64,000 nucleotides of DNA from Holophagaceae bacterium (GTDB lineage: Bacteria > Acidobacteriota > Holophagae > Holophagales > Holophagaceae): positions 1 through 64,000 of the forward strand of contig JALRCU010000041.1 of the NCBI GenBank assembly GCA_023257195.1. The letters are read 5' to 3'. Shown here piece by piece: positions 31,215 through 35,601 of this stretch (its first letter is position 1; the number at the start of each line of letters is the position of its first letter). The translations under genes and the position numbers were made by a program. Below the pieces are notes generated by a model that was given only the letters and a program-made list of their open reading frames with translations, was not told the DNA's origin and searched no databases.

Positions 31215-31934
31215 TTATTGAAACGATGCGACTAAGGCACGAGCAGCTTCGCGAGGATGACTCGCTGCTGTGATCGGTCGTCCAACCACTAAATAATCAG
31301 CCCCGGCCTGGAGTGCTGATCTAGGATCGGCTATCCGAACTTGATCCCCGAGGTCGGTTCCGGCCGGCCGAATACCCGGACACACCAAACAAAAAGATGA
31401 ACCCAAGTGTGCCCGAAGTTGGGAAGCTTCTTGAGGGGAGCATACTGCTCCGTCCATTCCGGATTGGTGGGCAAGGCGACTAAGACTTAAAACCGACGTA
31501 CCTATATCCTGGGTATGGCCGATGTGTTTCCATTCCGTCTCATCAAAACTAGTGAGAACGGTCACCGCTAAAGATTGCGTCTGACCTCCCTGTTGGCGAT
31601 GGGTATGAAGAAGTTCACTCACCGCTTTCATCATGAGTCTTCCCCCTGTCGCATGAACGGTCAGGAAGTCAGGGTCGAGGGGAAGCACCGATCGAAGGGC
31701 CCCGGTCACCGTGTTAGGAATATCTAAAAATTTAAGATCTAAAAAAATACGGGCGTGTCGTCTGAGGGCCTTCACTAATTCAGGACCCTCCGCACAGAAT
31801 AATTCGAGACCAACCTTAAATAAACCCACTTCTCCTGAGAGTTCCTCCGCCAGTCGAAGAGCCTCCGAGGCACGGGGGACATCGAGGGCCACGATAAGGC
31901 GTTCTCGGGGATGCTTGGGGCGAGAAGAAGACAA
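31215..31934 (-). CDS. pyrF: Orotidine 5'-phosphate decarboxylase
   Basis: A 239-residue enzyme making UMP from OMP. The active-site set is K40 and D66-x-K68-x-x-D71 (FLDLKFLDIPNTV), with the phosphate-binding VGRPI near the C-terminus. The only credible start is the TTG at 31934, because an in-frame TAG lies a few codons upstream and no other start codon precedes the conserved ERLIVALDV. AGGA is six bases before the TTG. Both are buried in the 3' arm of a long hairpin (31933-31980), an unusual arrangement. Confidence 0.95.
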   Translation of the reverse strand: MSSSRPKHPRERLIVALDVPRASEALRLAEELSGEVGLFKVGLELFCAEGPELVKALRRHARIFLDLKFLDIPNTVTGALRSVLPLDPDFLTVHATGGRLMMKAVSELLHTHRQQGGQTQSLAVTVLTSFDETEWKHIGHTQDIGTSVLSLSRLAHQSGMDGAVCSPQEASQLRAHLGSSFCLVCPGIRPAGTDLGDQVRIADPRSALQAGADYLVVGRPITAASHPREAARALVASFQ

Positions 31935-31980
31935 GGTATTTCCTGAATGAGTCTGCTTCTATTCTCTCAGGAAAAACCTT
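31933..31980 (-). promoter_or_regulatory. Hairpin sequestering the pyrF ribosome binding site and start
   Basis: Read on the minus strand, AAGGTTTTTCCTGA (31980-31967) pairs with TCAGGAAATACCTT (31946-31933) at 13 of 14 positions (one U-U mismatch) around a 20-base loop. The 3' arm contains the Shine-Dalgarno AGGA and the first two bases of the TTG start. No T-run follows, so it is not a normal terminator. It begins 15 bases after the M1 peptidase stop codon. A translational switch or coupling device is inferred. Confidence 0.6.
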
Positions 31981-31995
31981 GCCTTCCAATGCGAG

Positions 31996-33936
31996 TTAAA
32001 GGAGTCCAATGCCCTGCAAGCTATAGGTTAAAAAGGACATGACCATATGAGCCCAGTAGGCGATACCACGCGTCGGGGCCTTGGGACTCCAAGAAGCATA
32101 GAGGCGGTTATTTAAGATCGGGTATTCAAAATCGGGATCCAACTGAGCTTGTACAATGGGAGCGGGGAAATCAAAATGGACCCAACGATCTTTCCCATCC
32201 CATCGTACTTTTCGTTCTTCGCCTGTAGAGAGCCTAACCCAAAGCGTGATGGGCGATACAATTTCCCCTCGACGTTGGAGTTTGATTCGCCCCTGCGGCA
32301 TCAAGGTCGTGATCGGTTCAAATTCGGCCTCTAACTTCTGATTAATATCCCACCCACCCTCTTGGGTATTCAGGACACTGACCTCTTCAATTTGGTAATC
32401 CAGTATTCCCGTCCCCATGACGTAATCCGACCAAAAAGAATCGAGGTTACGACCTGAAATACGTTCGGCAATACGCTTGAAGTCTAAATGGGTGGGATGC
32501 TTAAACGCCATCTCGCGCGTATAAGTCATCATCACCTGACTCATGGTTTGATGCCCCAACCTCGCTTCGAGTTGCTGTAAGACCATATCGGGTTTGGTGT
32601 AGGCGGTATTCCCATAGGTGGCACTTTCATAGCCCTTGCGGGTCAGTGGATCGGAATTGGGCGTCATGAGATAGCTCATCAGGGATGAGAAATTTCCAGG
32701 AAGTTGGAAACGACGCGAATTGAGAAGGCCTGAATAATGCCGCTGCATGACCTTCGATTCAAAATAACTAGTAAACCCTTCATCGAGCCAAGGCTCGTTC
32801 ACTTCGTCACTGGCCAGCATCCCATAGAAATACTGATGCCCGAACTCATGCACTGTGACCACTTCAGGGATTCGGAAATTAAAGGGATCAAAGGCACTGG
32901 TTCCCGCCATGATCAGGGTGGGGTATTCCATCCCGTCGGCTCCCGAAGCGTTGGCGGGAGGGTCGACGACCGTTAACACCGGATACGGATATTTGAAGTA
33001 CCACTCTTCCGCCAACCTCAAGCTGGTCTCAATCGCCGCCACATGTCGATCAATCATCAAATGATGGCTAGGCTCATAAAAAAGAGAAACTCTTACTCCA
33101 CGATAAGTAAAGTCTCTTCGCTTCCAATCTAAGTTACTTTTCATGGCAAAGGCAAAGTCATGAATATCTTCGGCATACAATTTATAGATCATGCGCTTAT
33201 CATCCAACGGATCCGGCCAAGCATCTTTCTTGAGGCCATCCGCAGGATCGATGTAAGTGATCGCTTCACCTGAGTGAGCCAACCAAAATCCTCGGGGAAC
33301 ATTCACATTGACCGCATAGGTTCCAAAATCTGAAAAGAACTCTGTATTGGCGTGATGGGCATCACAGGTCCATTGAGACCCTTGATAAACTCCAACTTTA
33401 GGAAACCATTGGGCGGCCATTAGGAACCCATCGGACCACCCCGTTCGGGCAAAGACGCGAGGAAACTGACTCACCCATTCGATCTCCAGCGTAACGGTTT
33501 CTCCAGGCGAAACGGCTCGCGTTAAATTGACCCAATACACCGACTCGTCTTCACCGTAGGATCCTTGGAGGGAGCGACCTTCTAATCGAATCGACTCGAT
33601 ACGACAATAGCCCCAAGATGATTGATCATTCTCGTCTCCCATGCGATCACCCCGCAGGCTCCCGCCTCCTTCTCGCATAAAAATGGAATTGGGTCCCTTA
33701 AAGGCATTGAGGTAGAGATGGAGAGGCATCTTTGTCGTAGCTTGTGTTCCTGCATTTTTCCAGGTCAACTTCAAAGAGCCTTTCAGGGTGTGCTCTTCAG
33801 GGGTTACATACGCCTCGATTTCATAGTTCGCAAGGCGAGGAGCCAAAGGCGCCTTAAACCACACGGGATTTGAGGCCTGGCCCCATAGCGTTAAGGGGAG
33901 GAGTCCGAGGAGTAGGCGACAAAATAACTGCTTCAT
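31996..33936 (-). CDS. Exported M1 family metallopeptidase
   Basis: A 646-residue secreted zinc aminopeptidase-like protein. It has a signal peptide (residues 1-19, ending WGQA), a beta-rich N-terminal domain, and the catalytic motif TVHEFGHQ, followed 18 residues later by the third ligand in EPWLDEGF. The exopeptidase GAMEN motif is replaced by GADGMEYPT-like sequence, as in bacterial ERAP/LTA4H-like relatives. A hydrophobic segment closes the C-terminus. The start at 33936 has GGAG upstream and overlaps the upstream membrane gene by four bases. Confidence 0.88.
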   Translation of the reverse strand: MKQLFCRLLLGLLPLTLWGQASNPVWFKAPLAPRLANYEIEAYVTPEEHTLKGSLKLTWKNAGTQATTKMPLHLYLNAFKGPNSIFMREGGGSLRGDRMGDENDQSSWGYCRIESIRLEGRSLQGSYGEDESVYWVNLTRAVSPGETVTLEIEWVSQFPRVFARTGWSDGFLMAAQWFPKVGVYQGSQWTCDAHHANTEFFSDFGTYAVNVNVPRGFWLAHSGEAITYIDPADGLKKDAWPDPLDDKRMIYKLYAEDIHDFAFAMKSNLDWKRRDFTYRGVRVSLFYEPSHHLMIDRHVAAIETSLRLAEEWYFKYPYPVLTVVDPPANASGADGMEYPTLIMAGTSAFDPFNFRIPEVVTVHEFGHQYFYGMLASDEVNEPWLDEGFTSYFESKVMQRHYSGLLNSRRFQLPGNFSSLMSYLMTPNSDPLTRKGYESATYGNTAYTKPDMVLQQLEARLGHQTMSQVMMTYTREMAFKHPTHLDFKRIAERISGRNLDSFWSDYVMGTGILDYQIEEVSVLNTQEGGWDINQKLEAEFEPITTLMPQGRIKLQRRGEIVSPITLWVRLSTGEERKVRWDGKDRWVHFDFPAPIVQAQLDPDFEYPILNNRLYASWSPKAPTRGIAYWAHMVMSFLTYSLQGIGLL

Positions 33937-34850
33937 AGCACTCTCCTCTTCAGATCTTCCACGGTCTTTAAAACAAAATGTTGATTTGATAAGAAATGAA
34001 CAACATTTACTAAGAGGCATCGTAAAATTCCAGCATTAAGAATAGTGACACCCACTTGAATGAGGATGACGGATCCCAATGCAGCGGAGGTTCCCGCTCC
34101 CCATCGCCATGCCATCCAAAGGGCTCCATAAGAAAGAGCGACTCGCAAGGCGGTTGACATAATGGCTAGGCTGAGCCATGAGCCTATGTTTTTCCAAATC
34201 ATATAGAAACAAAAACGGAGATGATCTTTGTAGCTAGTCACGGGCTCTAGGAGTCGCTGGACTCGACAGATCGACCATTGCATCATCCAAAAACTAGTGA
34301 GCGCCATGGGCAGTAAGATAGTCCACACAAAAGCCGCCCACATCATGGGTAAGGACCCAATCCAACGGAGGCTATCGGTAAGCCAACTTAAGAGCCAACC
34401 GAGCAAGATCGTCGGAAGAAAGCCTATGATGAGCGCATCGCCTAAGCCTTTTATCCAAGGAGAAAAGCGGGCGGATTGTCCAAGCATATGAGCTTGTAGA
34501 CGCCAACCGCTTCTTAGGATGAGAAATAAAATTCCTGACGATAAAAGAATGAAGACTGATCCTACCCATGATTCAACATTGGTAATCGTCGGACTTCCTT
34601 TAATAAAATAAACTAAATCATTACCGCTGAGACGCGTACCCCAATCCTGAGCCAGCATGCTAGATCCATTAGAATAAGTCATCAAGTCGAGCCATCGACT
34701 TTTCAGGCTCCACGCTCCTGCTAGTGTCAATGCGACCCAGCTCAAAATAAATTCTGCATCTTCGCGACTGCAGATCGGTATCAAAGATTTTTTAATAAAA
34801 GCCCAGGGTCCTTGCGGACTATACTCGTTACTGGTCTGAAAGGTTTCCAT
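33933..34850 (-). CDS. Hypothetical multi-spanning membrane protein
   Basis: A 305-residue inner-membrane protein with about six hydrophobic segments (near residues 35-50, 95-112, 135-160, 165-190, 220-250 and 255-280). I recognise no family motif. Its stop overlaps the M1 peptidase start (ATGA), so the two are translationally coupled, and it may assist or localise that enzyme. Upstream lies the 64-base stretch shared with the umuD side. Confidence 0.65.
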   Translation of the reverse strand: METFQTSNEYSPQGPWAFIKKSLIPICSREDAEFILSWVALTLAGAWSLKSRWLDLMTYSNGSSMLAQDWGTRLSGNDLVYFIKGSPTITNVESWVGSVFILLSSGILFLILRSGWRLQAHMLGQSARFSPWIKGLGDALIIGFLPTILLGWLLSWLTDSLRWIGSLPMMWAAFVWTILLPMALTSFWMMQWSICRVQRLLEPVTSYKDHLRFCFYMIWKNIGSWLSLAIMSTALRVALSYGALWMAWRWGAGTSAALGSVILIQVGVTILNAGILRCLLVNVVHFLSNQHFVLKTVEDLKRRVL

Positions 34851-34958: not shown

Positions 34959-34982
34959 TTTGAATAGTGTACACTATTCAAA
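34959..34982. promoter_or_regulatory. Perfect 24-bp palindrome, candidate SOS operator of umuDC
   Basis: The half-site TTTGAATAGTGT is followed directly by its exact reverse complement, ending 10 bases before the umuD ATG and just upstream of its AGAGG ribosome site. Position and symmetry fit a LexA-type dimeric repressor site. The sequence is not the E. coli, Bacillus or alphaproteobacterial SOS box. Confidence 0.65.
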
Positions 34983-34992
34983 TAGAGGTTTT

Positions 34993-35601
34993 ATGACGAC
35001 TAAATCAAGGCAGGGAGGTGCTCGGATTGGAGCGGGACGAAAACCCGGCCAAGGCCCCTACGGCGAGCGAACGCAAGCCCTTCGAGTTCCCGAAAGCCAA
35101 CTCAGCCTTCTTAAAAAATACTTATCTCAGTATCGTCAATCTCCAGAAACTCCTCGACTCAAAAGGGGCGAAGTCATCGCGCTCGAGCTGCATGAAGTTC
35201 GGCGTGATACCCATCCACGCTTCATTCCCCTCATTCCCTCCAGTGTTCCAGCGGGGTTCCCTTCTCCGGCCGATGATTATTTTCATGGATCGATTGATTT
35301 AAATGAACATCTAATTCATCGACGTGAATCGACGTTTATCTTAAGAGTCTCTGGTTGGTCGATGTTGCGAGCAGGTATTCACGACGGCGATGAACTTATC
35401 GTCGATCGATCACTCGAGCCCCAAAACGGTCATGTTGTGATTGCCGTGGTAGACAATGAGTTGACCTGTAAGCGTCTTCTAAAATCAGGATCGGTGATTC
35501 GTCTCATTTCTGAAAACCCAGACTATCCCGAGATCATCGTAGATAAAGCCCAAGAAATTACGATTTGGGGTGTGGTCACACGTGTCCTGCATAAGGTATG
35601 A
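34993..35601 (+). CDS. umuD: UmuD-like S24 self-cleaving mutagenesis protein
   Basis: A 202-residue S24-family protein. The catalytic dyad is S123 (VSGWSM) and K160 (ELTCKRL); the cleavage site is probably A87-G88, followed by FPSPADDY as in E. coli UmuD. Compared with UmuD (139 residues) it has about 60 extra N-terminal residues, basic and glycine-rich ([12 protein letters not shown]) with a short helical region, possibly a DNA-binding module. The ATG at 34993 has AGAGG four to five bases upstream. It overlaps umuC by four bases. After DNA damage the cleaved form would partner UmuC. Confidence 0.9.

Follow-up and report, generated by a model that had tools for sequence, protein, structure and literature searches.

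In Escherichia coli and Salmonella, pyrC and pyrD are controlled by nucleotide-sensitive start-site selection, in which a hairpin covering the Shine-Dalgarno (SD) sequence is present in only some of the transcripts. The 5' arm of that hairpin is made of the first transcribed bases, and adjacent C and G starts lie 7 to 9 nt past the -10 element. Fold-back inhibition of the IS10 transposase follows another route to a hidden ribosome site: transcripts arriving from outside the element fold and hide the site, and the element's own promoter starts inside. In phage T4 gene e, the ribosome site is locked in long early transcripts, and late promoters in the 5' strand of the hairpin give transcripts that do not carry this strand and are translated; soc, 49, and I-TevI share the arrangement (PMC3014915).

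We analyzed the start of pyrF in a 64,000-nt stretch of DNA from a Holophagaceae bacterium (the window). By analogy, this locus is likely a member of the T4 gene e kind, with the promoter and both transcripts as predictions. It differs from gene e in being a chromosomal biosynthetic gene of an acidobacterium, known from sequence alone, and in having a sigma-70-like extended -10 element where the phage has a late promoter. IS10 shares the logic of outside transcripts that fold, but the pyrF locus has no mobile element. The likeness to pyrC and pyrD lies in a pyrimidine gene with an SD hairpin limited to some transcripts. However, the arm in those genes is the beginning of the transcript, whereas the pyrF arm spans the -10-like element and lies upstream of the inferred start.

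The pyrF locus and the hairpin over its start

The identification of pyrF as the gene for orotidine-5'-phosphate decarboxylase was borne out by the PF00215 and NF001273 matches (Table 1). The genus comparison comprised the window genome and the congeneric genomes G001 and G002 (L002 and L001, respectively, are the same contigs). The gene order M1 peptidase-pyrF-186-aa protein is common to the window and both congeneric genomes, and the distance from the M1 end to pyrF is equal in all three. PyrF is 86% identical to the window protein in L001 and 72% identical in L002. The first-pass annotation had named TTG as the only plausible start; this holds in the window and L001, but in L002 codon 7 is an ATG in the same frame.

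Table 1. Features of the pyrF locus (positions in the window)
Feature	Position	Strand	Basis or remark
pyrF, orotidine-5'-phosphate decarboxylase, TTG start 31934-31932	31215-31934	-	Pfam PF00215, E 9.5e-54; NCBIfam NF001273 above cut-off
M1-family peptidase ORF, co-directional, upstream of pyrF	31996-34020	-	Pfam PF01433, E 8.6e-16
M1 stop codon	31998-31996	-	61 nt before pyrF TTG
Hairpin 5' arm, overlapping promoter-like element	31963-31987	-	
Hairpin 3' arm, containing SD and TTG	31926-31950	-	
Shine-Dalgarno AGGA	31941-31944	-	Sequence; CAGGAAATAC preceding TTG invariant in 3/3 genus genomes
-35-like TTGGAA, 17 nt ahead of -10-like hexamer	31984-31989	-	Invariant in 3/3; resemblance only
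Extended -10-like element TGA-GAGAAT	31961-31969	-	Family-wide TGNNA[GC]AAT
Inferred transcription start region, about -20 +/- 3, in hairpin loop	31951-31957	-	Inferred from spacing to -10-like element

The hairpin was originally described as a 14-position stem. Its arms, AAGGTTTTTCCTGA (31980-31967) and TCAGGAAATACCTT (31946-31933), lie on the minus strand where they had been placed, and the SD (31944-31941) and the TTG codon both fall within the predicted stem. The actual stem is longer, with 23 of 25 positions paired (3 of them as G-U) between 31987-31963 and 31950-31926, so it begins 8 nt after the M1 stop codon and not 15 nt as first noted.

The hairpin was confirmed and is out of the ordinary: the 63-nt RNA from 31988 to 31926 folds with -30.6 kcal/mol (z -6.1), and none of 200 shuffles was that low (-13.7 +/- 2.8); the plus-strand fold of a 151-nt stretch was unremarkable (z -1.5). 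For 464 kb of the same genome, a simple ORF caller, not a curated annotation, gave 396 gene starts; among them the pyrF leader (-65 to +15) had the lowest folding energy, and the pyrF start (-15 to +3) ranked fourth for inaccessibility. When 210 orthologue pairs from the window genome and G001 were compared, pyrF was first by both summed measures (folding energy and inaccessibility). The most inaccessible of the 396 starts belongs to a minus-strand gene at about 2654 of the window, where CCTAGAAGATCTTTGCAAATCTTTTAGGAATCCCATG hides the SD and ATG. A dispersed repeat was rejected as the origin of the hairpin sequence, the pyrF copy being the only one in its genome above 14-nt chance matches.

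Conservation of the stem

Both arms are kept in the two congeneric genomes, as the earlier proposal had asked of relatives, but outside the genus the stem is missing. All three genus genomes have the leader TWTTTCCTGAGAGAATAGAAGYAGACTC...CAGGAAATACSTTG. The pattern TTTCCTGN{10,40}CAGGAAA occurs at one place in each of them, though one is also found with its reversed control. By pair counting over the three genomes, 86.7% of the stem cells are paired, compared to 39 to 61% when the arms are slid. Sixteen of the 25 stem pairs are invariant; 9 vary, and in 8 of these at least one species has a mismatch. None of the 25 pairs changed on both sides; the arms are thus conserved, yet covariation, which had been suggested as a check, was rejected as support for the stem.

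Arms without covariation are also what would be seen if the 5' arm were kept as a promoter and the 3' arm as a ribosome site and start-proximal sequence, with no function in the pairing. The conservation of the 5' arm in genera that have no 3' arm agrees with such a by-product, as does the relatedness of the three species, which together amount to roughly a single independent case of the 3' arm. However, complementarity beyond the AGGA is rare under permutation: when the letters of the 3' side were permuted with AGGA and TTG kept, an equally low energy was reached in 42/5000, 0/5000, and 16/5000 cases in the three related species. The 11 nt preceding the TTG are identical between the window genome and G001, a level that only 9 of 114 gene pairs reach. 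The window stem also gains an outer helix at changed sequence. The permutations and the 11-nt identity favor selection on the pairing, though the three species share history, and we consider a functionless pairing unlikely.

A promoter-like element in the 5' arm

The 5' arm overlaps a promoter-like TTGGAA-17-(TG)A-GAGAAT, a coincidence that the first-pass annotation missed. TTGGAA-17-GAGAAT is invariant in the three genus genomes, and the first half of the spacer diverges. The element was followed through 77 family genomes, 73 of which had a PyrF match; 70 leaders were read, leaving out G028, G083, and G087. The motif TGNNA[GC]AAT precedes pyrF in 56 of these 70 leaders, almost none of which has the hairpin, and occurs in 10 of the 11 genera, compared to a mean of 0.37 and a maximum of 3 leaders in 200 letter shuffles; since the family genomes are related, the 56 leaders are not 56 independent events. 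The 5' arm letters TTCCTGAGAGAAT recur ahead of pyrF in genera without the hairpin. All five occurrences of the exact 15-mer CTGAGAGAATGACAG in the 77 genomes are at pyrF, and genera g3 and g8 share the longer TTCCTGAGAGAATGACAG in their pyrF leaders, exactly or nearly so.

We read the family-wide element as an extended -10 promoter and infer that it is active. Against this reading, a consensus promoter scan with a threshold of 9/12 found none here, the element matching 8 of 12 letters. Similar conserved hexamers, for example TGAGACAATGG and CTGTCAGAATAA, stand upstream of other genes in the alignments of the window genome with G001, but conserved AGAAT was counted 19 times forward and 17 times reverse, compared to 5.2 when permuted, and this near equality of the strands speaks against a promoter. 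So does TGNNAGAAT, which is not enriched ahead of genes at large in the 464 kb; a looser earlier count (6 forward and 1 reverse, versus 2.3 in shuffles) was not reproduced with a stricter gene set. Attempts to derive a genome-wide promoter consensus by k-mer counts or motif search drifted or gave no enrichment and were abandoned. Because the 5' arm coincides with the promoter-like element, the transcripts from pyrF's own promoter probably do not carry the hairpin, which probably acts only in read-through RNA.

A repeat that covers a promoter-like element could also be a DNA site, with TTTCCTGAGAGA-N12-TCTCTCAGGAAA as an inverted repeat bound by a repressor over the -10/start region and the RNA hairpin incidental. 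The 14 uninterrupted pairs in L001 would suit such an operator, and the window contains a likely palindromic operator (34959-34982) that likewise folds as RNA. However, no second site of this form was found in the three genus genomes. The inner 3' half (alignment columns 51-53) varies and the 12-nt loop hardly does, opposite to the expectation for an operator. We regard a repressor site at pyrF as improbable.

The palindrome at 34959-34982, TTTGAATAGTGTACACTATTCAAA, is perfect and lies just upstream of a UmuD-like gene (34993-35601, plus strand); it is likely a LexA-type operator. Its core occurs once, exactly, in each of the three genus genomes, and one site with 1 mismatch is found in the window's own genome at C10:175342.

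Predicted effect of read-through on ribosome access

The energy needed to open -14 to +3 was computed for an RNA from the inferred start, assumed to be 7 nt past the -10 (near 31954), and for an RNA with 60 nt upstream of it. For read-through and short RNA, respectively, the values were 19.3 and 2.6 kcal/mol in the window genome, 13.9 and 5.6 kcal/mol in G001, and 16.0 and 4.0 kcal/mol in G002. With the upstream 60 nt shuffled, the mean opening energy was 5.4 to 6.3 kcal/mol, and 0 of 150 shuffles reached the observed value in each of the three species. A repeat of the calculation over different sequence intervals was consistent with this in the genus. The predicted probability that the SD is unpaired in the long transcript is 0.00 to 0.01 in all three species; the short RNA, by one measure, leaves it no more than 26 to 31% unpaired.

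Elsewhere in the family, 67 of the 70 leaders had a -10-like match and were tested (G003, G013, and G021 were dropped). Outside the genus, 2 of 64 leaders passed p<0.05 for a lock, which is about the chance level. When direct pairing between the -10 region and the SD region was scored in the 67 leaders, G029 and G024 (g8) and G006 (g5) reached 10 to 12 pairs outside the genus. Both g8 leaders fail the energy test and G006 passes it weakly (6/150), so no lock is claimed outside the genus. From this distribution, the predicted lock is confined to the window's genus and laid over an older promoter-like element.

The explanation that we prefer, and to which we give about an even chance, places pyrF with phage T4 gene e: a lock on read-through messages, built across the promoter of pyrF itself. 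Polymerase running on from the M1 gene would make an RNA with both arms, which would fold and bury the SD and TTG, and such read-through messages would yield little PyrF. A transcript from the promoter with its -10 in the 5' arm would begin in the loop, without that arm and with an open SD. The output of pyrF would then follow its own promoter, insulated from transcription of the M1 gene.

The junction with the M1 peptidase gene

A scan of 31700-32300 found no intrinsic terminator-like site between M1 and pyrF, and the hairpin itself, having no T run, was rejected as an intrinsic terminator (0 sites). M1 adjoins pyrF in the genus; in L095 (g8) and L093 (g4) a divergent gene of about 320 aa separates them, and in many other family genomes the M1 end is about 1 to 1.2 kb upstream of pyrF. 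Loss of the intervening divergent gene would expose pyrF to read-through. However, M1 also abuts pyrF in G009, G016, G023, G032, and G035, none of which has a lock, so insulation is not generally needed and the argument from gene loss is only suggestive.

The M1 stop codon is 61 nt upstream of the pyrF TTG, a proximity that would also fit translational coupling, in which ribosomes finishing M1 unfold the stem and pyrF is translated from the shared mRNA. The first-pass annotation had considered opening by terminating ribosomes. For rpmI-rplT, coupling by unfolding is described at +52 nt, and coupling is reported to be lost when the stop is moved well upstream of the hairpin (PMC12548453). The hairpin in unfolding-type coupling lies partly inside the upstream ORF, but the entire stem at pyrF is downstream of the M1 stop, after the 8-nt gap, and a terminating ribosome reaches the outermost pairs only. 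This position makes coupling to M1 less likely, and we consider it very unlikely.

Possible pyrimidine control and the sister genus g4

As pyrF makes UMP, a ligand- or pyrimidine-responsive switch on its translation had been thought conceivable. In the window's genus we found no signal in its support. The only Rfam matches above the gathering score in the window are three tRNAs, and a known riboswitch or RNA family at the hairpin was discarded for lack of such a match. The start region reads AGAAGYAGAC in all three genus genomes and does not offer the adjacent C and G starts of pyrC and pyrD, and the inferred start comes after the arm. We judge such a switch at the window's pyrF to be highly improbable.

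The pyrF leader of sister genus g4 is closer to pyrC and pyrD than that of the window's genus. In g4 (L169, L093, L099, and 39 others), pyrF starts with TTG or GTG, and its leader hardly varies. Counted from the -10, C7C8G9 is present in 40 of 42 leaders and T6 C7 C8 G9 in 37 of 42. The exact 17-mer TCCGCATCATACGGGAG follows the -10-like CAGAAT directly in 35 of 42, and with at most 1 mismatch it was found at pyrF in all six genomes checked, among the matches listed. A small stem over the SD can form between TCCG and CGGG(A), a likeness to start-site switching in E. coli pyrC that counts in favor of pyrimidine sensing. However, the computed opening energy responds little to the removal of two 5' bases: the shift is no more than about 2 kcal/mol and in most cases far smaller. 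By analogy, the g4 leader is a candidate for pyrC-like start-site switching, and this differently built, conserved leader could support pyrimidine sensing. In another genus, the pyrF leader of L082 (G019, g10) contains the short frame ATG GAC ACT GGA AAA TCA GGG TGA, which ends just ahead of the pyrF start.

A wider proposal is that pyrF leaders of the family repeatedly hide the SD in a stem and that the transcription start determines the 5' arm of this stem, through promoter versus read-through in the window's genus and through C7/C8 versus G9, with sensitivity to CTP and GTP, in g4. The shared regulatory input of the gene would be the choice of start site, an idea that we hold to be doubtful.

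Implications

Among the matches listed in the literature search, no paper dealt with the leaders of pyrF in Acidobacteriota. If the proposal for g4 is true, CTP/GTP-sensitive control of pyrF would exist outside Enterobacteria. If the read-through lock is true, a phage-style trick, a ribosome site hidden solely in read-through RNA, would operate in a housekeeping gene, and in an acidobacterium with a small genome. The lock would also explain how pyrF keeps its own control beside an unrelated co-directional neighbor without a terminator. A strong start-site hairpin read from DNA may thus be missing from the main mRNA of its gene.
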